Source: Chelatococcus sp. YT9
GTDB taxonomy: Bacteria > Pseudomonadota > Alphaproteobacteria > Rhizobiales > Beijerinckiaceae
DNA length: 64,000 nucleotides
NCBI RefSeq assembly: GCF_018398315.1
Contig: NZ_JAHBRW010000001.1
Span: 1,298,001 to 1,362,000 of the forward strand
Direction: 5' to 3'
Made by a program: the position numbers and the translations under genes. Below are positions 1 through 10,563 of this stretch, in pieces. How positions within the stretch are numbered: the stretch's first letter is position 1; the number at the start of each line of letters is the position of its first letter. The notes beneath the pieces are model-generated. The model made no database searches. It worked only from the letters and a program-made list of their open reading frames with translations, and was not told where the DNA came from.

Positions 1-1978
1 TAACAGCATTGGTGCCGCCGATATCGGCAAAACCGCCCATATAGTAGTAGGAGTCGGAATAGTCACCACCCGCCCATTGCGGATAGGCACCCTTATAACC
101 GAGGATCAGGTCGCCCTTGCCGCTGTTCTCAACAGTCAGAACACGCGTCACCGGGTGAGCTGCGTCGGTGATGTCAAACTGCCAGGCGTCGCCCGAAAGA
201 TCAGGCTGCTGGTTATTGAAGTACGTGTCGAACTGGCCTTTCGACTCGAAGTGGAACTCGCCGGCGCGCTTCACGCCGAGAGCACCCGCGTCGTCATTGG
301 CCTTGTTGTTCGCCCAGGTGACCTTCAGGTTGCTGTCGGAGACACCGGGAGCGTACTCGATAAGGTGATAGGCGTTGGCCTGCGTGCCGAACACGTTCAG
401 GTTCGCCACCGTCGAGTCCATGTTGATCAACGCGAAGCGGTTGCTGCTCTCGTTGACATTCACGGTCTTGACGTCATCGACCTTGGCGAAGTTGAGCGTC
501 GCATTGGCCTTGAACGTGAGGTCGAAGGTCTCGATCTCGGTGCTCGTCGGCGCGCGCGTGCCACCCGTGGTGAAGGTCGCATAGAGCGTGTCGTTGCCGC
601 CGTTCCCATCGAACACGTCGCCGTTGGAGAGCGTGTCGCCGGTGTAGAGCTTGTCGTTGCCCGCGCCGAGCTTGACATTGATGTCAGTGGTCGAGTCGGA
701 GATGTTCAGCGACAGGTTCGACTTGGCAGCCGAGGCGTCGATGCTGGTGAGGCCAGCGTCGAGGGCGTTCTTGATGCGGAAGTCGAGGCCGGCCGTGCCG
801 CCGTCGATCGTCAGCTTCGTGGTGCCCTGGGAGTGGAACGAGTTGACGTCCGACGTGAAGCCCGCCGTGTCGTTGATGGTCAGCGCGACCGTCTCGATCT
901 TGGCACCGGCGTCAGCCGTCAATTCGACATCGCCGCGAACTTCCTTGAGGCCGAGCTTCACAACCTTGCCGGCACCGACAGCCTGAGCGTCAAAGTCGAG
1001 CGTGGTGTGCAGCAGGCCGTTCGACGAGACATCGTCGTCGATGCTGTAGACGGTGTCCGAGCTCTGCAGATTGCTGAGCTTGGTGTCGACACGCAGCGTG
1101 TCGAGAGCGATCGCGTCGATCTCGGTCCAGCGGCGGGTGTCAACGGTGACCGGGCCCGTGCCAGCGGCGTCGCTGGTGCCGACCGTGATGAGGTCGACGT
1201 TCTTGATCGTCTGGCCGTCATAACCACCCGAGGTGAACTCGAGCTCGACCGAGCCGGAATTGCCGGTGATGATGTCGCCAGCCGTCAGCGTGCCCGTGCC
1301 ACCACGAACGACGTCGCCGTCATGGATGTTGAGGATGTCGACGCCCGAGGTCAGCGGAATGGTCTCCGGCTCCGGCTGCGGCTCCGGCGGCAGGAAGTCC
1401 GGATTGAACAGCGTGCCGGTGTAGACGGGCTCGCCATCAGCAGCGGCCTCGAGGAAGCCGGCGATGTATTCCTGCGCCGCGTCGGTAAATTCCGGCGACT
1501 GTGAGAACGACAGGACGAGGCGGGCGAGAGCTTCCTCGCGGCCGACTTCCTGGGTCCACTGGCCAAGAGCGGCGGTCCAGAACTGCACGCCAGCAGGCTC
1601 ACCTTCGCGGCCGAGCACGTTGACATACATCTTCGCGACGACAGCTGCGTCGGGAAGATTGTCATACTGGTCCTGGAACTCCTGGCTGACTGCGAAAGCG
1701 GTCGACAGATTGCCGAGCGTAAGCGTGCCGCCGACGTTCGCCTGCGTGTAGTTCTGCACCCAGAAGTCGAGACCAGCGCTGTCCGGCACGCGACCGAACA
1801 CAGCCTGGTAGAGCTGAACGACGGGGTTAACGCTGCCGCGAGCGGCGGTGATCAGAACATCCTGCAGCTCCTGCACGGTGTCGTAAGAACCGGCAAGCGC
1901 ATTCACTTGGGACTGGGTAGGCGTAACACGAAGAATTGCTTTGTAGTTGGCAGCAACTACTGCGGGATCAAGAGCCAT
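1..1978 (-). CDS. DUF4214-domain secreted / S-layer-like protein, 3' end beyond window
   Basis: The reading frame is open from an ATG at 1978 down to the window edge, about 659 codons, with the C-terminus missing. The start has an AGAGGAT ribosome site just upstream. The N-terminal 130 residues hold two DUF4214-type repeats (LYQAVFGRVPDSAGLDFW, then MYVNVLGREGEPAGVQFW). A proline/glutamate linker (PPEPQPEPE) leads into a long beta-rich region with many Asp, Asn, Thr and Gly, including GAGNDKLYTGD and DGNGGNDTLY, which are RTX-like calcium-binding turns. No signal peptide is visible. DUF4214 proteins with RTX-like repeats are usually exported by type I secretion, and a PrtD/HlyD pair lies 4-8 kb away, so I infer that this is its cargo, perhaps a surface-layer protein. 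It could also be an adhesin. The export signal would be in the missing C-terminus. Confidence 0.8.
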   Translation of the reverse strand, partial: MALDPAVVAANYKAILRVTPTQSQVNALAGSYDTVQELQDVLITAARGSVNPVVQLYQAVFGRVPDSAGLDFWVQNYTQANVGGTLTLGNLSTAFAVSQEFQDQYDNLPDAAVVAKMYVNVLGREGEPAGVQFWTAALGQWTQEVGREEALARLVLSFSQSPEFTDAAQEYIAGFLEAAADGEPVYTGTLFNPDFLPPEPQPEPETIPLTSGVDILNIHDGDVVRGGTGTLTAGDIITGNSGSVELEFTSGGYDGQTIKNVDLITVGTSDAAGTGPVTVDTRRWTEIDAIALDTLRVDTKLSNLQSSDTVYSIDDDVSSNGLLHTTLDFDAQAVGAGKVVKLGLKEVRGDVELTADAGAKIETVALTINDTAGFTSDVNSFHSQGTTKLTIDGGTAGLDFRIKNALDAGLTSIDASAAKSNLSLNISDSTTDINVKLGAGNDKLYTGDTLSNGDVFDGNGGNDTLYATFTTGGTRAPTSTEIETFDLTFKANATLNFAKVDDVKTVNVNESSNRFALINMDSTVANLNVFGTQANAYHLIEYAPGVSDSNLKVTWANNKANDDAGALGVKRAGEFHFESKGQFDTYFNNQQPDLSGDAWQFDITDAAHPVTRVLTVENSGKGDLILGYKGAYPQWAGGDYSDSYYYMGGFADIGGTNAV

Positions 1979-2300
1979 GGACGGATCCTCTCGAGACACA
2001 AGGGGCAGGCCAGGCCGTAAGCCGAGGCATCTGCCGTAGCCGGGGGTATACAGCGTTCTTCATACCCATACAAGCCAATAGTAAGTGTTTTTTATATCCA
2101 CTCGCACCTCGGCACGTTCCCTTAGCTCTCAAAATTTTCTTTTAAATCAATATGTTAAGTGTCGTTAACCGCAAGAATGCAACACTCAATTCTGATTTGT
2201 AAGAAAAATCATTACGTACGGCGTACAGCAAATATTGCACCGTGCGTGTAAGTGCAGTACCTTCACGCCAGGCTGGAAACGTCGCATTTTGAGGCGCGTC
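1979..2300. other. Divergent AT-rich control region between DUF4214 gene and XRE regulator
   Basis: This 322 bp gap has no convincing gene. It is clearly richer in A and T than its surroundings, especially 2060-2240, as expected for the promoters of two divergent genes. A short symmetric motif, GTAC-GGC-GTAC, lies at 2216-2226, about 75 bp before the regulator start, and could be an operator. That is inference only. I could not settle on -35/-10 boxes. Confidence 0.4.
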
Positions 2301-2606
2301 ATGTATGGAAATCCACAAAGACTTGATGATTCGGACGTTCAGTCACTCAGGCGCGACGCGGGACGGTGGCTGAAGGAACGGCGCGAAGCCGTGGGCCTTT
2401 CACAGCGTGAATTGGCAGGCCTAGTGGGCACTCAGTATTATACGTTCATATCCCAACTCGAACTGGGGCGCGGCCGCATCCCTCCGGACCGCTATCGCGC
2501 TTGGTCCAAAGCGCTCAAGGTCGACTTGAAGCTTTTTGTGCAGACCATGCTCAAGTTCTACGATCCTGTGACCTACGACATTCTCTTTGAGAGCGAAGGC
2601 GCTTAG
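2301..2606 (+). CDS. XRE-family HTH transcriptional regulator
   Basis: A 101-residue protein that is essentially one helix-turn-helix domain. The HTH spans about residues 20-75, with the recognition region LSQRELAGLVGTQYYTFISQ. The start at 2301 was preferred over an in-frame TTG at 2235 because the paralogue at 10048-10563 begins at the equivalent place. The two proteins share the stretch YTFISQ-x-E-x-G-x-GRIPP and a following WSKALKVD, then a Tyr-Asp-Pro/Tyr-Asn-Pro segment, so they belong to one narrow subfamily. This copy lacks the C-terminal coiled coil of the other. It lies 33 bp upstream of an uncharacterised gene and diverges from the DUF4214 gene. I infer that it regulates the surface-protein/secretion island. 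Confidence 0.85.
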   Translation: MYGNPQRLDDSDVQSLRRDAGRWLKERREAVGLSQRELAGLVGTQYYTFISQLELGRGRIPPDRYRAWSKALKVDLKLFVQTMLKFYDPVTYDILFESEGA

Positions 2607-2639
2607 CCGCCTACCGACTCGCGCTTGGCTGGGCTGGCC

Positions 2640-4199
2640 ATGGCAAGCAATCCCATTACCAATCTTTACTTCTTCAGACGCAAATCCAGGGACTGGACCC
2701 CACAGGACTTGGCGGATCTTGCGCGCCTCGAAGCCGCATTGCGGCGTTGCGGTCTCAATATCGAAACGGAGCATGGATGTTCCGATGAGGGAGACCCGTG
2801 GTTCATTTTCACAAGCGTCGACACGGAAGACCCGATTATCCATATCGCGTATATCGATGGGGTCTTTGTCATCGCGAGTGGTTTCGGCGAGGCCCTGCAG
2901 GATCGCGCGCTCGGGGCAGTCGTTGAAAGCTTCCTCACGCGGCATGTGTCTCGCTTGCCGGTGGCGCAGGCTTGCGACAGCAACTCAAATATAGTCGCGC
3001 ATCCCGCCGCGCTACTACCAGGGGTTGTTGCCCCGCTCTTTGTGAACAACCTGAGCGACAATCTCAACAATTCCTATAGCACTGGCGTGCCGATTGCGGC
3101 GACAAGCAAGCACGCCTGGGTTGCGACAGCTGCCTCGCGCTTGAAGGATAAGGGGTCTTTCCCAGCCGCGACTGTTGTTCTGGCCGCACTCGCCGCTGCG
3201 CTCCACCAGCGTGGGCATCTTGACGGGGCCGGCATCGCGCTGCCTCCTGCCGAGCCCGTGGTCCATGATTCGTCGTTCCCCGCCGTTGACGTGGCGATGT
3301 CCGAGGTGAGCGATCGCCCCGCGGCTCTCAAGACAGATCTGGCGGAAGCAGATGCGGGCTCGGGGAGTGCGCGGCAGGCCAATCCTTCCAGAACGTCGTC
3401 CGGCGCGCTGGAGGCAGCTGATCATCGTGGCGGGAGTGCCGACGATAAAGCCCCAGTGGCGATTGCAACGGATGTTAGCGGCGTCGTCAGCAAGGTCGTG
3501 GCGGCCGGCGAAGCGAGCTTGGCGATCGCAAGTGATTCGGTGCCGGAAGTTCATGCCGGTACTGATGATATCAGTGACGCGATAAAGCAGGCGATCGATC
3601 AGATGCTTGCTGGTGGCCGTGGCAGTAACGGTGCGCCCGAGGCTGAGCCGAGGGTGCAGCTCGCCAGCCTCGCCGTCACGAGCGACGATTTGCCAGCTCA
3701 TATGGTGGCCGATGATAGCACGCCCGATTCCGCTGGATGGGACATCACTGCCGCTCGCCAGAGCACCACTTCCCAAAATGCCGACTATACCGGCTCAATC
3801 GGCCGGGCGGCCGTCATTCCGCCAACGTCCCCCGATGACGCGACGCCGTCGGTGCCCGACCGCTCGATGGGATCGTCGTCCATTGATGCCCCCACCCCAC
3901 CGCCATCTACCCTCGTGCCACCTTCTCCATCAAAGCCGGCAACCGCAGCCGACAAGCGTGTATCAAATGACTTGGCGATTCGCCTCGTCGAAGACTTTAT
4001 GGATAGCAATCGCAACGTCCATATCAACGATGGCGCAGGAAAATCCTATATCGGAGGGGCGGGTAACGTAGTCTATTCCACCTCAGATTATACCCCCGTC
4101 GACGGCAAGACCTTTGTGATCGAAACACTGGCCGCCGAGGACGGCTCCCACATCACATTGATCGGCTACCTGAGTCCAGACCTCTGGCTCGCCACCTGA
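2640..4199 (+). CDS. Uncharacterised protein: novel N-terminal domain, long disordered linker, C-terminal domain
   Basis: A 519-residue protein of no family I recognise. Residues about 8-95 form a domain that recurs almost alone in the small protein at 4925-5224. Both have DL-x-DL-x-x-LE near the start, an acidic serine stretch before a conserved Trp, then I-x-HIA-x-IDGV followed by an alanine/serine end. Residues about 120-440 are low complexity, rich in Ala, Ser, Asp and Pro, and look disordered. The last 80 residues look folded again (EDFMDSNRNVHINDGAGKSY, later GYLSPDLWL). There is no signal peptide or membrane segment, so it is probably cytoplasmic. The ATG at 2640 was chosen over a TTG at 2625; it follows the XRE gene by 33 bp, so they may be co-transcribed. 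A secretion accessory or regulatory partner is possible, but unproven. Confidence 0.7.
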   Translation: MASNPITNLYFFRRKSRDWTPQDLADLARLEAALRRCGLNIETEHGCSDEGDPWFIFTSVDTEDPIIHIAYIDGVFVIASGFGEALQDRALGAVVESFLTRHVSRLPVAQACDSNSNIVAHPAALLPGVVAPLFVNNLSDNLNNSYSTGVPIAATSKHAWVATAASRLKDKGSFPAATVVLAALAAALHQRGHLDGAGIALPPAEPVVHDSSFPAVDVAMSEVSDRPAALKTDLAEADAGSGSARQANPSRTSSGALEAADHRGGSADDKAPVAIATDVSGVVSKVVAAGEASLAIASDSVPEVHAGTDDISDAIKQAIDQMLAGGRGSNGAPEAEPRVQLASLAVTSDDLPAHMVADDSTPDSAGWDITAARQSTTSQNADYTGSIGRAAVIPPTSPDDATPSVPDRSMGSSSIDAPTPPPSTLVPPSPSKPATAADKRVSNDLAIRLVEDFMDSNRNVHINDGAGKSYIGGAGNVVYSTSDYTPVDGKTFVIETLAAEDGSHITLIGYLSPDLWLAT

Positions 4200-4924
4200 G
4201 CGTGTCTCTTCTCTTTAGTTCAGTTCGAAACTAAGTATAGGCGCCTGTCGAGGGGCCTGTCTCATAATTCCATTCATCTTTGCCGCAGCCACCGGCGGAG
4301 GCTAGGGAGAACGCGGAGTGAATGCGAGAAAAGGGAAATACTGTCGAAAACGGTCAAGGCCAAACTTGCGCCGACATGGATATGAAACATTTGCGTGAGA
4401 TCAGCGGGCTCAGTCGAAGTTTCATTAAGGTCCAATCATGCGGCTCTCCGCACCATTATGCCCGGCTGATTGCTGTTGCTCACGCCGCCGGCGTCCGGCC
4501 GAGAGAATGCAAGTGCCGACAACGGAGGCGACTTTTCTGACAGCATCGCAGTAACGGGAGATCTCTCGCGCTGAATTGCAATCGCACCCGCCATTGTCGG
4601 GAGAGCAATTGATTCACGGCCAAATAGGCCACCGCGAATCTAGACCGACTTCGCCCCGTTTCAAGCTTGCCGGAAGCTGCCCGCGGCATTGTTCAAGCCG
4701 CGCCGGATGGCTGCCGCGATTGTTCCGGAGTATCGAGGTAACGTCATCTTTCTGTCTGCTCAGCGCCGATATGGCTGACTATCCACCTGAAACGTAGCGC
4801 ATCATCAAAGCTTGAATTTTCCGAACACACGAACGCAACAGTTGAACCCTATGATAAGCTCTTCCACGGCTTATAATTTTGGAAAATTCGGTATGCGTCG
4901 CGTAGCTTCATTATTGAGGAGAGT
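4200..4924. other. Long intergenic region within the T1SS island
   Basis: A 725 bp stretch with lower GC than the exporter genes. A 72-codon frame at 4322-4540 begins with ATG and has a nearby GGAG, but the spacing is poor and its product resembles nothing, so I do not call it a gene. The last 100 bp before 4925 are AT-rich and probably carry the promoter of the small gene that follows. Confidence 0.35.
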
Positions 4925-5224
4925 ATGAACTATCTTCACCTGAAGTCTGCGGGCAAGCAGGATCTTACCGATCTACTATGGCTTGAGAAGGTGTTGAATA
5001 AAGTCGGACCTCGATTCGAAATATCGTCGTCGGTCAGCGAAGATGGAAGCGAGTGGGTCGCCGTTATCGATGCGGAGTATGCGGAAACGATCGTCCATAT
5101 CGCTTGGATCGATGGTGTTGCGCTCGTTGCATCATCTCCACTGAGGGCCGCAAGCAGCGGTCCTCGCCTCCGTCCTCTCTTGAGGAACGCGCTTGAAGAA
5201 AACGGCATTAATGCAAGGATCTAG
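4925..5224 (+). CDS. Small uncharacterised protein sharing the N-terminal domain of the 2640-4199 product
   Basis: A 99-residue protein with a strong GAGGAG ribosome site directly before the ATG. It is essentially a stand-alone copy of the domain at the N-terminus of the 519-residue protein. The shared features in order are DL-x-DL-x-x-LE at about residues 14-22, a Ser-x-Glu-Asp-Gly stretch followed by Trp at about 37-45, and the signature TIVHIAWIDGV at about 57-67 followed by ASSPLRAASS. No catalytic motif, signal peptide or membrane helix is visible. Two copies of one domain within 2.5 kb suggest duplication, with one copy fused to a long linker. The function is unknown. I infer that it works with the secretion system because it sits between the cargo gene and the exporter. 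Confidence 0.7.
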   Translation: MNYLHLKSAGKQDLTDLLWLEKVLNKVGPRFEISSSVSEDGSEWVAVIDAEYAETIVHIAWIDGVALVASSPLRAASSGPRLRPLLRNALEENGINARI

Positions 5225-6084
5225 ACCCTTTCATCAACGCACACCCGAAGCGAAGCGATACGGCTTCCACACTGGTGCAGCATCCGCCTGCTCAGCAAGT
5301 GTCGCGGGTGCGCTTCCAGGCAGTACGGAGCGTGCGTCCAGCGGCGTTTCGGCGTCCTCAACGCGTCGTTCCATCCTATCGCGCGACACCAGCCACGAAT
5401 AAGAGCAGCGTCTGGTTGCCGGCAAATAAATACCCAGCACTTGCCAACGGTATGTAAAAATAATACACCCTTGGGTGCAAGGCTACCCCGATGAATTGCC
5501 TGGTACAAACTCGTGCAAATGAAAGCCCATCATTCGCGCGCCATGGCGGTCGCGCCAAACGCATCCTCTACATCCGAAGCTAGGCAAATGTGTAGATCGC
5601 CCGGCATTGCCACGCTTGATGACCTCGTAGAGACGGTGCCCTGCAGGAAGTGTTCTATTTCGGTAACAATTGAAGGTGGTGTGGTCAGTTTATCAAAAGG
5701 TGAGTGCTGCATCTGGACACATCTTTTCCTGCGTGACGGAGGCCTCCCAGGATCTTTGTCGCGCACCTGTCCGATTGTAGAGCTCTTGAGAAAGCTCGAA
5801 CTGGCCAAGAACAAGATATCGTTTTGAAGGGCGCAGTGTCTTCGCGCTAGGCCGTAGCGAGAATTCAACACGCACGTCACGCGAAATGGGATTGATCGCC
5901 GAGCGTCGCTGCGCGCCAGATGGCAAAGCCTTCCTGGCGCTGAAGTTGTTGCGCTCTGCTGTCGAACGAGGAGCGCGGGCGTGTCGCCAGGCGCTGCGGG
6001 GAACCGTGCGTTGGAGAACGCGGCCGATCCTACTTAGGATGAGACCGCGCGCCGGTGCTGCGCATGGGATTGGAGCGTAGATTG
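5225..6084. other. 860 bp region upstream of the exporter genes
   Basis: No gene here is convincing. A 104-codon frame at 5513-5827 contains a CRKC and a GECC stretch but has no ribosome site and no recognisable family. A small inverted repeat, CACCC-TT-GGGTG, lies near 5467-5478 beside an AT-rich patch (5450-5470) that could be a promoter. The region may hold decayed sequence or a long leader for the exporter operon. Confidence 0.3.
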
Positions 6085-7866
6085 ATGTCACAGGCGGGGA
6101 TTATGGGTGGGGGTAAGAAGGCTCCGACGGCGCTGAACGCGGCGATCCGCGCGACGCGACCCGCGTTTGTGACGGCGATCATTTTCTCGTTTTTCATCAA
6201 TCTTCTGGGTTTGACGGGTTCGTTGTACATGATGCAGGTCTATGACCGCGTCCTGTCGAGCCGGAACCTGACGACACTTGTTGTCCTGACGATCCTGATC
6301 GCGATTTTGTATCTTGTTTCGGCCTCGCTGGAGAGCCTCAGGACGCGCCTTCTGGTGCGCGCGGGTGTCCGGTTTGACGAGGAGGTGAACGCGGATGCGT
6401 TCAATGCGGTGCAGCGGGCCTCGCTGCGCCAGCCCGGTCCTGGCCATGTGCAGGCCCTGCGCGACGTCGACAGCATCCGGGAGTTCTTCACGGGCCAGGG
6501 GCTGATCACCTTCTGCGACGTGCCGTGGGTGCCGATCTACATCATCGCGGCAACGCTGCTGCATCCCTGGTACGGGATCCTGGCGATCATCACGGCCTTG
6601 ATCTCGGCGGCGCTGGCCTTTGCGAACGACCGTGCGACGCGGCCGGTGCTCGACCAGGCGACGAAGGCCAATATCACGGCGCAGAACCAAGCGCTGACCA
6701 CCTTCCGCAATGCGGAGGTGCTGCAGGCGATGGGGATGGTGGGACGGCTGCGCGAGAAGTGGGTGAAGCACCACTACGACGCGCTTGGCCACCAGGCGCA
6801 GGCCTCCGACCGGGCCGGCGGGCTGATGGCGGGCATCAAGTTCAACCGCGCCTTCATGCAGAGCCTGATCCTGGGGGTCGGAGCCTATCTCGCCATCAAG
6901 CGGGAGATCTCGCCGGGCATGATGATCGCGGCCTCGATCATCGTGGGGCGCTGCGTGCAGCCGATCGAGATGGCGATCAGCAACTGGAAGTCGCTGATCA
7001 ACATGCGCTCGGCCTATGAGCGCGTGCAGGGCCTGTTGCGGGCGCTGCCGGCGCCGGGCGCGCGCATGCGTCTGCCGGATCCGAAGGGTGACATCTCGGT
7101 CGAGAACCTGATCGTGCGGGTGCCGACGCGGGACGTGCCGGTGCTGAAGGGCATCTCCTTCGCGGTGCCGGCGGGCACGGTGCTGGGTGTCATCGGGCCG
7201 AGCGCTGCGGGCAAGTCGAGCCTGGCGCGGGCGCTCGTCGGGGTGTGGCCGGCGGCAGCGGGCTGTGTGCGGCTCGACGGATCGGACCTGACCCATTGGG
7301 ATCCCGAGCAGCTCGGGCGCTTCCTCGGCTATCTGCCGCAGGACGTGGAGCTGTTCTCCGGCTCCATCGCCGAGAACATCGCGCGCTTCGGCGACATGGA
7401 CGAGGCGGGGATCGTGGGGGCGGCGCAGCTGGCCGGCGTGCATGAGATGATCCAGCGCCTGCCGGACGGCTACAACACGCAGATCGGCGAAGGCGGGCAG
7501 GCCCTGTCGGGCGGCCAGCGCCAGCGCGTGGGACTGGCGCGGGCCCTTTACGGGTCGCCGCCGATCCTGGTGCTGGACGAGCCGAATGCGAGCCTCGACG
7601 CGGCCGGCGAGCAGGCGCTGATGACGGCGATCCGCCAGCTGAAGGCGGCCGGGCGCACGGTGATCCTGATCAGCCACAAGACCAATTCCCTGGCCTTGTG
7701 CGATTCCATCCTGGTGCTGGCGGAAGGTGGCGTGCAGGCCTTCGGGCCGCGCGACGAGGTGCTGGCCAAGGTGCTCGGGCCGCGCATCGTCGGGCCGCAG
7801 GGCGCAGGGCCGGCGACCGCCGCCCCCGGCCAGCCGGGCATCGCCGCGGCCGCCGCGCCGGGTTGA
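6085..7866 (+). CDS. Type I secretion system permease/ATPase (PrtD-like)
   Basis: A 593-residue ABC exporter of the PrtD/HlyB class, without the N-terminal C39-like domain of HlyB. Membrane segments fill residues about 25-300 (SFFINLLGLTGSLYMMQVYDRV, ITFCDVPWVPIYII and others). The nucleotide-binding domain follows, with Walker A GPSAAGKSS near residue 371, signature LSGGQRQR near 473 and Walker B ILVLDEP near 494. It should sit in the inner membrane and drive export with the HlyD partner and a TolC-like channel encoded elsewhere. ATG 6085 was chosen over GTG 6055 and ATG 6064 because GGAG lies 9 bases before it, in the same leader context as the next gene. The tail after residue 560 is Ala/Gly/Pro-rich. 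Likely cargos are the DUF4214 protein and the RTX protease at 32950. Confidence 0.93.
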   Translation: MSQAGIMGGGKKAPTALNAAIRATRPAFVTAIIFSFFINLLGLTGSLYMMQVYDRVLSSRNLTTLVVLTILIAILYLVSASLESLRTRLLVRAGVRFDEEVNADAFNAVQRASLRQPGPGHVQALRDVDSIREFFTGQGLITFCDVPWVPIYIIAATLLHPWYGILAIITALISAALAFANDRATRPVLDQATKANITAQNQALTTFRNAEVLQAMGMVGRLREKWVKHHYDALGHQAQASDRAGGLMAGIKFNRAFMQSLILGVGAYLAIKREISPGMMIAASIIVGRCVQPIEMAISNWKSLINMRSAYERVQGLLRALPAPGARMRLPDPKGDISVENLIVRVPTRDVPVLKGISFAVPAGTVLGVIGPSAAGKSSLARALVGVWPAAAGCVRLDGSDLTHWDPEQLGRFLGYLPQDVELFSGSIAENIARFGDMDEAGIVGAAQLAGVHEMIQRLPDGYNTQIGEGGQALSGGQRQRVGLARALYGSPPILVLDEPNASLDAAGEQALMTAIRQLKAAGRTVILISHKTNSLALCDSILVLAEGGVQAFGPRDEVLAKVLGPRIVGPQGAGPATAAPGQPGIAAAAAPG

Positions 7867-8091
7867 GCAAGCCTGGCCTCCAAAGGGGCCTCGCGTGACC
7901 TCAAGCGGCCGCCCAATGACCCCCGAGGGGGCTAACACCGATGTGATCGGAGCCGGCGGCTCTCCTGTGGCGAGCGGCGGCGCCGGTGTTTATGTTCGCT
8001 GGCCCGGTTGCCGCGTGGTCCGGACAGCGCTTGTCCCTGTTGTTCCTCCGGCTTGGTCCGGAGTCTGGTCTGTGACGCTGGAGCGTGGTTG

Positions 8092-10011
8092 ATGTCCGAG
8101 CAGAAGATCCCCCCGGTGCAGAAGGCTCCTGTGCAGAAAGCGCCTGTGCAGGCCGAGACAGGGCAGGCCCCAAACCAGCCCGCCCCCAACCCGCCCGCAT
8201 CGAGCCAGTCCCTGTTCGCACAGCCCGTTGCGGGTCACCATTCGCGGGTGGCCGTGTCAGCCCCCGGCGGCGTCCCGGCCGGCGCCGACGGCGAGAGCAC
8301 GCGCTTTCCGCGGCCGCTGACCTTCGGCAGACCCATTCCGCCAAACCAGCCCCCTCAAAGCCAGGCCAGCATGGGCCAGCCCACCATGGGCCAACCCATG
8401 TCGGGCCAGCCCACCCCTCCCCTTCCGGCCGGAGCGCGACCCGCCGGCCCCGCGGCGACAGCCGCCGCGCCGGAAGACGTTTCGGGAGCGAGGTTCGAGG
8501 GCGAAACAGCGGGGTCCACCCCCTTCGCCGCCATCACGCCGGCGAAGGTGCCGGCCCATGAGGCCATCCAGGGCCAGCCTCTGCAGAACAAGGCCATGCA
8601 GGACAAAACCGGACGCAAGCTGCCCTTCCTCGAAAAGGCCATCGATGCCGCCCTCAGCCTGGGCAAGAGCAAGCGCGACAAGGCGGAAGGCGGCAGCGAC
8701 GGCACCGGCTCCCCGGGCAAGCCCGACAGCGACTTCCGCCGCATCGCGCTGACCGGCTATGCCATCATCATCTTCACCTTCGGCGTCATGGGCGGCTGGG
8801 CCGCGCTCGCCAATATCGACGCCGGCGTCGTGGCGCCGGGTGTCATCTCCGTGGAGAGTAAGCGCCAGGTCGTGCAGCACCTGGAAGGCGGCATCATCAA
8901 GGAGATCAAGGTCCGCGAGGGCCAGAAGGTCGAGGAGGGCGACCTCCTGTTCCGCCTCGAGGACACCACCGCGCTCGCCAACCGCGACGCGGTGCGCAAC
9001 CAGGTGTATGCGGGCCTGGCGCTCGAGGCCCGCCTCGTCGCCGAGCGCGACGACGCCCCGGCGATCACCTTCCCCGCCCTCCTCGTCGACCATCCCGACG
9101 ATCCGGTGGTCAAGCGGGTCATCGCCGACGAGACCGCCCAGTTCACCGACCGGCGCGCCTCCATCACCGGCCAGCTCAACATCATCAACGGTCGCGTCGA
9201 CCAGCTCAAGGCCGAGATCGACGGCCTCGACCGTGAGCGCAAATCCGCCGAGCAGCAGCTCTACTTCATCAACGACGAGCTCGTCGGCATCCGCGACCTC
9301 GCCCTCAAGGGTCTCGTCCCGAAGTCGCGCCAGTCGGCGCTGGAGCGTGAGAAGGCCCGCCTCGACGGCGTCGTCGGCCGCAACCTCGCCGATGCCGCCA
9401 AGGCCCAGAACAATATCGGCGAGATGAACCTGCAGGCGACCCAGACCCGCCAGAAGTTCATCGAGGAGGTCGGCGCCCAGCTCCTCGACATCCGCCAGAA
9501 GCTCGGCGACATGCGCGAGAAGCTCAACGTCACCGAGGATGTCCTGCGCCGCACCGAAATCCGCGCGCCACGCGCCGGCGAAGCCCAGAACATCAATCAG
9601 CGCATCTTCACCGTCGGCGCCGTCGTACGCCCCGGCGACACCCTCGTCGAGATCGTTCCCCAGGACGAGCTCGTCATCGAGGCCCGCGTCCAGGTCACCG
9701 ATATCGACAATCTCAGGACGGAAACATCAACGGAAGTCCGCTTCCCGGCCTTCCACTCGCGCACCACGCCGCTCATCCTCGGCACCCTGCGCAACGTCTC
9801 CCGCGACCGCCTCGTCGACGAGCAGACCCGCGAGCCCTACTACCTCGCCCTCATCTCCGTCGCCGATACCGATATCCCCTCCGAGCTCAAGGGACGCCTC
9901 AGACCCGGTATGCCCGCCGAAATCATCTTCAATACAGGCGAGCGGACCGTCATGAGCTACCTCATGAGACCCCTCACAGACGCCATGTCCGGCGCCTTCA
10001 GGGAACACTGA
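8092..10011 (+). CDS. HlyD-family T1SS membrane-fusion protein with long N-terminal extension
   Basis: A 639-residue adaptor, clearly longer than the usual 430-480. The first 215 residues are low complexity and rich in Pro, Gln, Ala and Gly, with short repeats such as PVQKAPVQKAPVQ and MGQPTMGQPMSGQPT. A single membrane helix at about 218-240 (YAIIIFTFGVMGGWAAL) is followed by the lipoyl-like half-motif EGGIIKEIKVREGQKVEEGD near 265-285. A long alpha-helical hairpin occupies about 315-480, and the second lipoyl half and beta-barrel follow, containing EIRAPRAGEAQNINQRIFTV. The final part matches the HlyD C-terminus (RLRPGMPAEIIFNTGERTVM). GGAG lies 8 bases before ATG 8092. It spans the periplasm between the ABC exporter and an outer-membrane channel. 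The N-terminal extension should be cytoplasmic, where cargo is met. Confidence 0.92.
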   Translation: MSEQKIPPVQKAPVQKAPVQAETGQAPNQPAPNPPASSQSLFAQPVAGHHSRVAVSAPGGVPAGADGESTRFPRPLTFGRPIPPNQPPQSQASMGQPTMGQPMSGQPTPPLPAGARPAGPAATAAAPEDVSGARFEGETAGSTPFAAITPAKVPAHEAIQGQPLQNKAMQDKTGRKLPFLEKAIDAALSLGKSKRDKAEGGSDGTGSPGKPDSDFRRIALTGYAIIIFTFGVMGGWAALANIDAGVVAPGVISVESKRQVVQHLEGGIIKEIKVREGQKVEEGDLLFRLEDTTALANRDAVRNQVYAGLALEARLVAERDDAPAITFPALLVDHPDDPVVKRVIADETAQFTDRRASITGQLNIINGRVDQLKAEIDGLDRERKSAEQQLYFINDELVGIRDLALKGLVPKSRQSALEREKARLDGVVGRNLADAAKAQNNIGEMNLQATQTRQKFIEEVGAQLLDIRQKLGDMREKLNVTEDVLRRTEIRAPRAGEAQNINQRIFTVGAVVRPGDTLVEIVPQDELVIEARVQVTDIDNLRTETSTEVRFPAFHSRTTPLILGTLRNVSRDRLVDEQTREPYYLALISVADTDIPSELKGRLRPGMPAEIIFNTGERTVMSYLMRPLTDAMSGAFREH

Positions 10012-10047
10012 AACCACCCAAAACAAACCAAAAAACGGCGCGGACCA

Positions 10048-10563
10048 TCACACCTTCTTGCGGCCGCGCGCCCGAGACCCTTTGCCCGGCTGGGGAGGCA
10101 GCTCTTCCGCCGGTGGCTGAGCGTCCGCCTCGCTCTGCTCCAGACGCTTCTGAAGCCGCGCGACTTCGAGCGTCTTCTCGCCCAGCAAGCGCTGAAGCTC
10201 GCGGATCTCCTCCTGGAGTCCATGGGTATCGAGGAGCGATGACTTCGCGGATGCGCCGGCCTTGGCACGTGCGCCGGTGGGAAAAAGCAGGTCGTAGAGA
10301 AAAGGATTGTAATATTTTATAATATTGAGTGCGAACTCATGTGGATCGACCTTGAGCGCCTTACTCCAGACTAAATACTTTTCCGGGGGAATGCGTCCCT
10401 TGCCGATTTCCACCTGAGAAATAAATGTATAAAAGTCGATGTCGATGAGCTTAGCCAAGTCGCGCTGCGACAAGCCTGCATCCTCACGCAGGCGCCGCAA
10501 CCACACTCCTCCTTGTTGGCGCGCCTTCTTGGTCTTCTCATCAAGCTGAATTCTACCCACCAT
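10048..10563 (-). CDS. XRE-family HTH regulator with C-terminal coiled coil
   Basis: A 171-residue regulator. The HTH at about residues 20-85 (LRRLREDAGLSQRDLAKLID, then YTFISQVEIGKGRIPP) is a close relative of the 2301-2606 product. The region after it (WSKALKVD, then IIKYYNPFLYDLLF) also aligns. Unlike that copy, this one continues into a heptad-rich stretch at about 118-150 (LQEEIRELQRLLGEKTLEVA), predicted to form a coiled coil, and ends in a basic tail (GSRARGRKKV). It converges on the HlyD gene with 36 bp between stops. Together the two regulators bracket the secretion island. I infer that the longer copy forms dimers or heterodimers and may control the same promoters. Confidence 0.87.
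   Translation of the reverse strand: MVGRIQLDEKTKKARQQGGVWLRRLREDAGLSQRDLAKLIDIDFYTFISQVEIGKGRIPPEKYLVWSKALKVDPHEFALNIIKYYNPFLYDLLFPTGARAKAGASAKSSLLDTHGLQEEIRELQRLLGEKTLEVARLQKRLEQSEADAQPPAEELPPQPGKGSRARGRKKV

Follow-up and report, generated by a model that had tools for sequence, protein, structure and literature searches.

A recurrent XRE–SD gene pair beside type I secretion and surface-protein genes in Chelatococcus sp. YT9 and other Alphaproteobacteria

Introduction

At one end of the window (the whole stretch of Chelatococcus sp. YT9 DNA that was analysed, 64,000 nucleotides), a type I secretion system (T1SS) exporter and adaptor lie with a DUF4214 surface-protein gene, two proteins sharing an unnamed domain, and two helix-turn-helix regulators of one narrow XRE subfamily. 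Is this a self-contained surface-export unit and, if so, what do the regulators and their unnamed neighbours do in it? The partner protein of the XRE regulator has no name and is here labelled SD. The regulator–SD pair recurs across Alphaproteobacteria and their plasmids, and in some relatives SD itself looks like an exported protein; the cell may therefore adjust how much surface protein it makes to how that protein is secreted.

Gene content and conservation of the island

The features of the island are as follows.

1..1978, minus strand: gene of the DUF4214 surface protein, truncated by the start of the window
2046..2067, plus strand: first candidate operator for XRE, some 68 bp before the start of DUF4214
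2221..2242, plus strand: second candidate operator for XRE, some 59 bp before XRE1
2301..2606, plus strand: XRE1, a 101-aa helix-turn-helix regulator (HTH_3)
2640..4199, plus strand: SD524, 519 aa from ATG, with the SD domain at its N-terminus, then a weak hydrophobic segment, a linker of low complexity and a conserved C-terminus
4925..5224, plus strand: SD99, consisting of the SD domain and nothing else
5439..5485, plus strand: block conserved in four genomes, with a GGTAT-N-ATAC dyad, upstream of the small ORF and PrtD
5519..5827, plus strand: small Cys-rich gene, conserved, absent from the gene list of the sequence-only reading
6066..10011, plus strand: stretch repeated at 99.9 % identity in a second cassette, G000:C1:3774843-3778791
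6085..7866, plus strand: PrtD-type T1SS permease/ATPase (TIGR01842, above the curated cut-off)
8092..10011, plus strand: HlyD-type T1SS adaptor whose N-terminus is extended by a Pro/Gln-rich stretch (TIGR01843, above the curated cut-off)
10048..10563, minus strand: XRE2, 171 aa, of the same HTH subfamily as XRE1, with a C-terminal coil

All of the genes named in the sequence-only reading are present where it had placed them. PrtD scores 732.6 bits against a cut-off of 510.15 and HlyD 380 bits against 208.65; XRE1 and XRE2 match HTH_3 at 33 and 30 bits, with a gathering score of 23. No outer-membrane TolC-type partner was found among the scanned island proteins. The full-length DUF4214 protein (L031:11473-15000) has 1175 aa, with two DUF4214 stretches and RTX nonapeptide repeats (PF00353, E 9.7e-11).

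The two regulators do share YTFISQ, GRIPP and WSKALKVD, and are about 50 % identical over 89 aa. Likewise, SD524 and SD99 have a domain in common; a local comparison on a small set aligned them at 39 % over 59 aa (E 4e-11 and 9e-12). The domain is about 110 residues long and matches no Pfam or NCBIfam family.

Genes of the island are under purifying selection. The dN/dS ratio is 0.01-0.05 for XRE1 (four genomes), 0.02-0.10 for SD99, with saturated dS in one pair, about 0.2 over the whole of SD524, and 0.08-0.41 for the small Cys-rich gene (four genomes), which is confined to this genus among the loci examined. It is possible that the conserved block at 5439..5485 is a second regulatory site. 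Two further species of the genus, L114 and L115, retain the full gene order, and the grouping of a DUF4214 or RTX protein with XRE, SD and T1SS is seen again in other families. Scattering of these genes in relatives, which would speak against an island, was not observed, although some relatives have no exporter nearby.

Co-occurrence of XRE and SD, and proximity to the exporter

At the family level, SD and the XRE subfamily are present in the same 6 of 80 genomes (Fisher 3e-9). At the class level, both are found in 21 of 387 genomes (SD in 22, XRE in 26; one with SD only and five with XRE only; Fisher 6e-29, relatedness ignored). On plasmids, 57 records carry both, out of 58 with SD and 59 with XRE. 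Most of the regulators behind the XRE profile were SD-linked, and overlap is therefore favoured in these counts.

One XRE gene lies directly upstream of SD for 20 of the 25 SD genes in the class sample, therefore bracketing by two regulators, as the layout had been described, is not a general rule. Two XRE-SD pairs describe the bracket better, though it is uncertain which of the SD genes goes with XRE2. What stands of the proposed surface-export unit is that it is conserved and has its own regulator and an unnamed partner. A separate set of seven loci, one of them apparently on the same contig as a class-sample locus, has XRE immediately before SD in every case. Other arrangements occur: XRE is located beyond PrtD-HlyD in G138 and G219, and on a Pseudosulfitobacter plasmid 31 kb separates XRE from SD.

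Excluding the genome of the window itself, 10 of the 21 other class-sample genomes, representing 6 of 13 genera, have PrtD no more than 10 kb from SD, where 0.15 would be expected. Eight of the 11 genomes without PrtD at this distance have SD on contigs that end within 10 kb; G146, G152 and G227 are truly without it. T1SS genes are present in 6 of 8 named plasmid regions, which were picked by the authors. On the plasmid of Rhodospirillum rubrum ATCC 11170, the genes are RRU_RS19805 (XRE), RRU_RS19810/19815 (SD) and RRU_RS19795/19800 (T1SS). In the Tabrizicola locus L022, an OEP gene adjoins XRE.

Many plasmid copies of XRE-SD are near glycosyltransferase and methyltransferase genes and, in R. 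rubrum, also rhamnose genes. This would fit shared transfer on attachment-type plasmids or islands, in which XRE, SD, T1SS and glycosylation genes co-occur as cargo without joint function. Such hitch-hiking is quite unlikely, however, as the adjacency of XRE and SD and a common promoter motif are kept in many genera, and some genomes have XRE and SD without a nearby T1SS.

A partner gene just after a small XRE gene is also the layout of a toxin-antitoxin or defence-like pair, and the XRE HTH weakly matches antitoxin and control-protein models, in its HTH part only and below the curated NCBIfam cut-offs. Against this, neither SD524 nor SD99 matches a toxin-antitoxin or defence family at E 0.1 (NCBIfam) or 0.01 (PADLOC), and XRE-SD is associated with T1SS and surface proteins. 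This function is extremely improbable.

A candidate operator

A 22-bp candidate operator precedes the DUF4214 gene in all three such modules of the Chelatococcus sp. YT9 genome. A search of the whole genome (6.74 Mb) with its core pattern gave three exact hits, each ahead of the DUF4214 gene of a different module, and the genome count is taken from these three alone; with one mismatch allowed there are nine matches, compared to five for the pattern read backwards. The element was first noticed through dyads enriched among 49 promoters from all genera, and through promoter alignment. As it was found by inspecting promoters, it is post hoc in this genus. As a dyad it is only weakly symmetrical (correlation 0.33). 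Perfect palindromic dyads of 5-mers were considered as the operator and rejected, their frequency not being above the shuffle maximum (3).

A matrix trained on eight sites, all from this genus, was run on 47 regions upstream of XRE in other genera, whose promoters had been inspected beforehand; 20 of these regions have a site at p<0.05. On the same regions, 60 permuted matrices gave a mean of 4.2 and a maximum of 11, and the reversed matrix gave 7. Control windows are mostly coding DNA, therefore the column-permuted matrices are the fairer control. When near-duplicate loci are removed, leaving 38 regions, 16 have a site at p<0.05, compared with a mean of 3.4 and a maximum of 10 for the permuted matrices and 4 for the reversed one. 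The remaining 27 of the 47 regions have no significant site. The matrix scan found no sites of at least 9 bits near SD99, PrtD or XRE2 in the window; a weaker operator-like site is present before PrtD copy B.

Architecture of the SD proteins

SD proteins begin with the domain, which is usually followed by a hydrophobic segment and a linker, and some relatives have RTX repeats. The longer proteins (SD-long) have an N-terminal domain, a hydrophobic segment, a long variable linker and a conserved C-terminus. There are 51 of these, three of which lack the anchor motif used in scoring; L087_7581 was anchored at the wrong place and kept. The segment reaches at least 1.8 (15-residue window) in 37 of the 48 scored, and positive charges favour an N-in orientation in 32 and the reverse in three. 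The segment of SD524 is among the weakest, at 1.59, and contains prolines. SD99 has neither segment nor linker.

This layout could be that of an envelope-spanning mechanical partner of the exporter or surface protein, a TonB-like anchor or periplasmic clamp, with XRE as a local repressor only. Such a part would hardly suit SD99, which lacks the spanning portion, and it is very unlikely.

It is fairly unlikely that the SD-long proteins are just small surface proteins or T1SS substrates of an ordinary kind, with the N-terminal domain serving anchoring or retention, XRE acting on them as a plain operon regulator, and no signals passing between XRE and SD. In Methylobacterium, SD is the gene directly after HlyD, encoding 1122 and 1587 aa, and RTX repeats (PF00353) are inside the SD proteins of L079 and L086. 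Strong RTX arrays are present in five SD loci, four of these from one genus. PF00353 was not found in the SD relatives of L070, L072 and L089, nor in SD524 by Pfam scan. SD99-type proteins, however, occupy the same kind of locus with no export part, and short SD-like genes follow XRE in G174 and G299 also. The N-terminal domain alone is very conserved, as the dN/dS of SD99 against that of whole SD524 indicates.

The best explanation, held tentatively and at somewhat less than even chance, is that the island is conserved, serves a surface layer or adhesin, and has an XRE-SD control unit of two parts dedicated to it. It draws on the observed gene order and its conservation, the co-occurrence of XRE and SD, the domain architecture, with RTX arrays in some SD proteins, and the recurring promoter motif. 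Fold comparison gave no clear match, which counts against this control unit, as do the weak segment of SD524, its lack of RTX repeats and the concentration of strong RTX arrays in one genus.

XRE2, SD99 and the second exporter copy

XRE2 is possibly the partner of SD99. Two observations count against this pairing: the regulator at g268 is nearer to XRE1 in its HTH part (57 % over 96 aa) and XRE2-like in its C-terminal extension only (43 % over 133 aa), and in G775 the short SD comes after an XRE1-like regulator. A second PrtD-HlyD cassette elsewhere in the genome is 99.9 % identical to that of the window, and the two exporter copies are 99.9-100 % identical inside each of three congeners. Of the three modules in the genome, module B additionally carries SapC.

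Proposed working of the island

In the control-unit explanation, XRE1 would bind the 22-bp operators in the gap separating two divergent units, DUF4214 and XRE1-SD524, and control both. The DUF4214/RTX surface protein would be exported by PrtD-HlyD with an outer-membrane channel, for which no gene was found in the island. SD-long would be the cognate partner that XRE1 binds, its N-terminal domain remaining cytoplasmic, the predicted membrane segment holding it at the inner membrane, and the flexible C-terminal part extending into or through the envelope. The N-terminal domain would thereby report the state of export or of the envelope to XRE. SD99 may perform the same role in soluble form, perhaps for XRE2, which may govern the adjoining exporter.

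A variant, considered decidedly improbable, is an export-coupled switch, in which SD-long would be a self-retained substrate, entering the exporter C-terminus first with its N-terminal domain left in the cytoplasm on XRE, and the short SD proteins would be cytoplasmic members. The cell would then sense exporter availability or outside calcium and adjust surface-protein synthesis.

Genes annotated as 'hypothetical protein' and 'helix-turn-helix transcriptional regulator' near surface exporters of many Alphaproteobacteria, and on plasmids, become one testable module with candidate operator sites. If SD does report on secretion, type I secretion would have a principle of regulation of which no description was found in the literature searched.

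Comparison with known systems

In the S-layer T1SS loci of Caulobacter (RsaADEF) and Campylobacter fetus (Sap), a PrtD-type exporter and HlyD adaptor are beside a large surface protein. The window is similar, with PrtD and HlyD near a large surface protein, and SapC is present in module B; the surface protein here is instead DUF4214/RTX. Neither of these loci is known to have an XRE-SD control pair.

Roseobacter biofilm plasmids reportedly carry a rhamnose operon. XRE-SD is comparable in its presence on plasmids with glycosyltransferases, and the R. rubrum plasmid also has T1SS and rhamnose genes, whereas the copy in the window belongs to contig C1, of 4.37 Mb.

Transmembrane regulators of the FecI/FecR type have a cytoplasmic N-terminal domain, a membrane segment and an outer part, with a DNA-binding partner nearby. 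The proposed working of SD and XRE is likened to these on the layout predicted from sequence. In contrast, the partner here is an XRE HTH protein and not a sigma factor, and no FecR domain was matched in SD524 or SD99 (Pfam scan, E up to 1).

In the FlgM export checkpoint, the partner of a regulator is itself linked to export. The likeness to FlgM applies to the export-coupled switch, for which export of SD is putative, and the exporter would be a T1SS rather than the flagellar exporter.

Layout of the island

The window carries two regulators of one narrow XRE subfamily (XRE1 and XRE2), two proteins (SD524 and SD99) with a shared domain (SD) of about 110 residues, and a type I secretion (T1SS) exporter and adaptor, PrtD-HlyD.

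Genes of the island, in window positions
Cut by the window start, minus strand: DUF4214 surface-protein gene
2301-2606, plus strand: XRE1, regulator
2640-4199, plus strand: SD524, long SD protein
4925-5224, plus strand: SD99, short SD protein
5519-5827, plus strand: small Cys-rich gene (102 aa), absent from the gene list of the sequence-only reading
6085-7866, plus strand: PrtD, T1SS permease/ATPase
8092-10011, plus strand: HlyD, T1SS adaptor
10048-10563, minus strand: XRE2, regulator, on the opposite strand to XRE1

Past XRE2 are a TetR-type regulator and an alpha/beta hydrolase, which look unrelated to the island. Among the loci compared, the small gene is conserved at this locus (A) of Chelatococcus only; its product has no match in Pfam, NCBIfam, PHROGs, or PADLOC. 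GC content is 68-71 % in the PrtD-HlyD region (6001-10000) and about 55-62 % in the flanking sequence. Between three Chelatococcus species, PrtD has a synonymous divergence of about 0.2, lower than the 0.3-1.1 of neighbouring genes. Of the named relatives found, Chelatococcus asaccharovorans (L021) is the nearest.

The 6.74 Mb genome has five XRE-subfamily and five SD-domain matches. Three loci combine DUF4214 and SD with a divergent XRE1-type regulator: the window (A, at C1:1298001-1362000), C1:3786k (B, L028), and contig C3:135k (L029), where SD is an ORF of 306 aa at a distance of 1.2 kb from the XRE gene. No XRE adjoins a fourth SD gene (C1:2508554, L038), and no SD adjoins the XRE at C1:12416 (L030). 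DUF4214 of locus B has beside it SapC and a methyltransferase that carries a regulatory domain (L028:3267-5756); such methyltransferases are also present in L071 and on a Rhodospirillum rubrum plasmid.

XRE and SD genes occur together

The expectation that the XRE subfamily and the shared domain would co-occur in related genomes was borne out, with both in 21 of 387 class genomes. SD is present in 22 (E 1e-5) and the XRE subfamily in 26 (E 1e-12), the latter by a profile biased in being drawn mostly from SD-linked regulators. The same-family search with XRE2 alone is free of that bias; in this sample SD and the XRE subfamily are in the identical 6 of 80 genomes. The single SD-only class genome (G230) has its SD on a 3.8 kb contig. 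XRE alone is found in five (G089, G170, G174, G295, and G299). Two of these, G174 and G299, have a distant SD-like gene immediately after XRE (E 5e-7 and 2e-10 when six sequences were searched). In the phylum sample, SD is present in 6 of 397 genomes, all six Alphaproteobacteria.

Among 72 556 plasmid records, SD is in 58 and XRE in 59 (E 1e-5 and 1e-12), with 57 records in common when the two full listings were compared by eye. Independent cases are far fewer than 57, because 30 are plasmids from Pseudosulfitobacter (276-281 kb) that all have the same match. The SD-matched gene is annotated 'hypothetical protein' in 56 of the 58 records and has no annotation in two. On the R. rubrum plasmid it is annotated as two overlapping ORFs (L183:10935-12546), which may be one interrupted gene.

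Gene order is also conserved. XRE is directly upstream of SD for 20 of 25 SD genes in the class-sample loci and in all seven loci of one genome-contig scan. The exceptions are G328 (at a contig edge, with a partial XRE on it), G230, G028 (both families present, not adjacent), and G138 and G219, where XRE is situated past PrtD-HlyD. A Roseovarius locus (L027) has the window order of DUF4214, XRE, SD, PrtD, and HlyD. At L182:11061-19901, the gene divergent from XRE and a short SD encodes at least 2947 aa, with peroxidase domains and RTX repeats.

Association with type I secretion

The proposed link to the exporter extends to a number of relatives: 10 of 21 other class genomes with SD (G012, G091, G116, G138, G199, G219, G269, G333, G369, and G381), from 6 of 13 genera, have PrtD no more than 10 kb from it. 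With 0-2 PrtD genes per genome, 0.15 would be expected (binomial 8e-17, uncorrected for relatedness). In 8 of the 11 remaining genomes a contig ends within 10 kb of SD (G028, G086, G127, G193, G230, G265, G328, and G383); in G086, PrtD is about 15 kb off on the other side of SD. G146, G152, and G227 have no PrtD near SD. Of eight named plasmid regions of our own choosing, T1SS genes adjoin the pair or are a few genes away in six (R. rubrum, Ruegeria TM1040, Shinella, Aureimonas, Methylobacterium radiotolerans, and M. nodulans); none is in the stretch from the Sulfitobacter mediterraneus P5 and Pseudosulfitobacter plasmids, for which the gene table is incomplete.

The sequence-only reading had taken the island as a possible surface-display unit bracketed by two paralogous regulators. 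Other Chelatococcus species (G399 and G438) have the full window order including both regulators. The bracket is better interpreted as two XRE-SD pairs: XRE1 with SD524, associated with the surface protein, would adjoin XRE2 with SD99, associated with the exporter. This is preferred because in genus g268 (G390 and G430) a regulator whose C-terminal extension is XRE2-like is beside a short SD and divergent PrtD-HlyD, and these loci have neither XRE1 nor DUF4214. The assignment is not clean: in its HTH part the g268 regulator is closer to XRE1 (57 % over 96 aa; 43 % over 133 aa to XRE2), and G775 has a short SD after an XRE1-like regulator.

Three Chelatococcus species each have two copies of PrtD-HlyD, at matching places and both near XRE-SD modules; in this genome the cassettes are window 6066-10011 and C1:3774843-3778791 (L037). 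Judged from identity levels, the 4-kb pair is under concerted evolution, because the cassettes are 99.9-100 % alike within a genome (3949 bp, 99.9 %; 4186 bp, 100 %; 3922 bp, 100 %) yet about 88-94 % between species. Gene conversion would be the simplest form of this.

A candidate operator

A 22-bp element, near VTRTACAGYRAWNWBCATACYC (14 sites of our own choosing), is common to XRE/DUF4214 promoters and has weak dyad symmetry (correlation 0.33). The promoters of A and B have no match of their own in nucleotide comparison. The strict core of the element has three exact matches in the genome, one before each module's DUF4214 gene, these being the sites from which it was derived; with one mismatch there are nine, against five for the reversed pattern. 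The window sites (2046-2067 and 2221-2242) score 28.9 and 22.5 bits by a 14-site matrix that includes them, and the next best in 64 kb scores 10.9. With a matrix from eight Chelatococcus sites, 20 of 47 regions upstream of XRE in other genera reach p<0.05 and 13 reach p<0.01. For 60 column-permuted matrices the means were 4.2 and 1.4 (maxima 11 and 5), and the reversed matrix gave 7 and 2. The site before PrtD copy B, outside the training set, scores 15.7 bits in two of three species and 10.6 in the third. No site of at least 9 bits was found for window XRE2, SD99, or PrtD.

The SD protein

Searches of Pfam, NCBIfam, PADLOC, and PHROGs with the N-domain (about 110 aa) gave no notable match. 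A model built on 10 sequences (pLDDT 81) has a helix, five strands, and a helix, with no clear fold match. Of 51 long SD proteins 48 were scored, and in 37 of these the N-domain is followed by a segment with hydropathy of at least 1.8, usually with an acidic stretch after it. The predicted topology is likely N-in, because positive charge favours the N-terminal side of the segment in 32 of 48 and the other side in 3. In SD524 this segment is one of the weakest (1.59, with prolines). Given total lengths of about 370 to 1587 aa, the linkers should span roughly 200 to 1400 residues, and at least two profile types are seen among the C-termini. Arrays of 6-12 RTX repeats were found by regular expression in five SD loci (L079, L083, L084, L085, and L086), four from one genus (g121), and a few further SD proteins have 3 to 5 repeats; Pfam bore out RTX in both array-bearing proteins scanned. 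dN/dS is 0.01-0.05 for XRE1, 0.02-0.10 for SD99 (dS being saturated in one pair), 0.16-0.23 for SD524, and 0.08-0.41 for the small Cys-rich gene.

Comparison with described systems

The likeliest prior description is in Michael et al. 2016, reportedly a study of biofilm plasmids, which the literature search did not reach. No description of the XRE-SD pair was found in the literature searched, on DUF4214, XRE, T1SS/RTX, S-layer, export feedback, Chelatococcus adhesin, biofilm plasmids, R. rubrum, and Ruegeria, including parts of PMC10090131 and PMC8319176. XRE-SD is a recurrent, unnamed regulator-partner pair, with a putative mechanism of control, that is associated with surface proteins and type I secretion in the Alphaproteobacteria.
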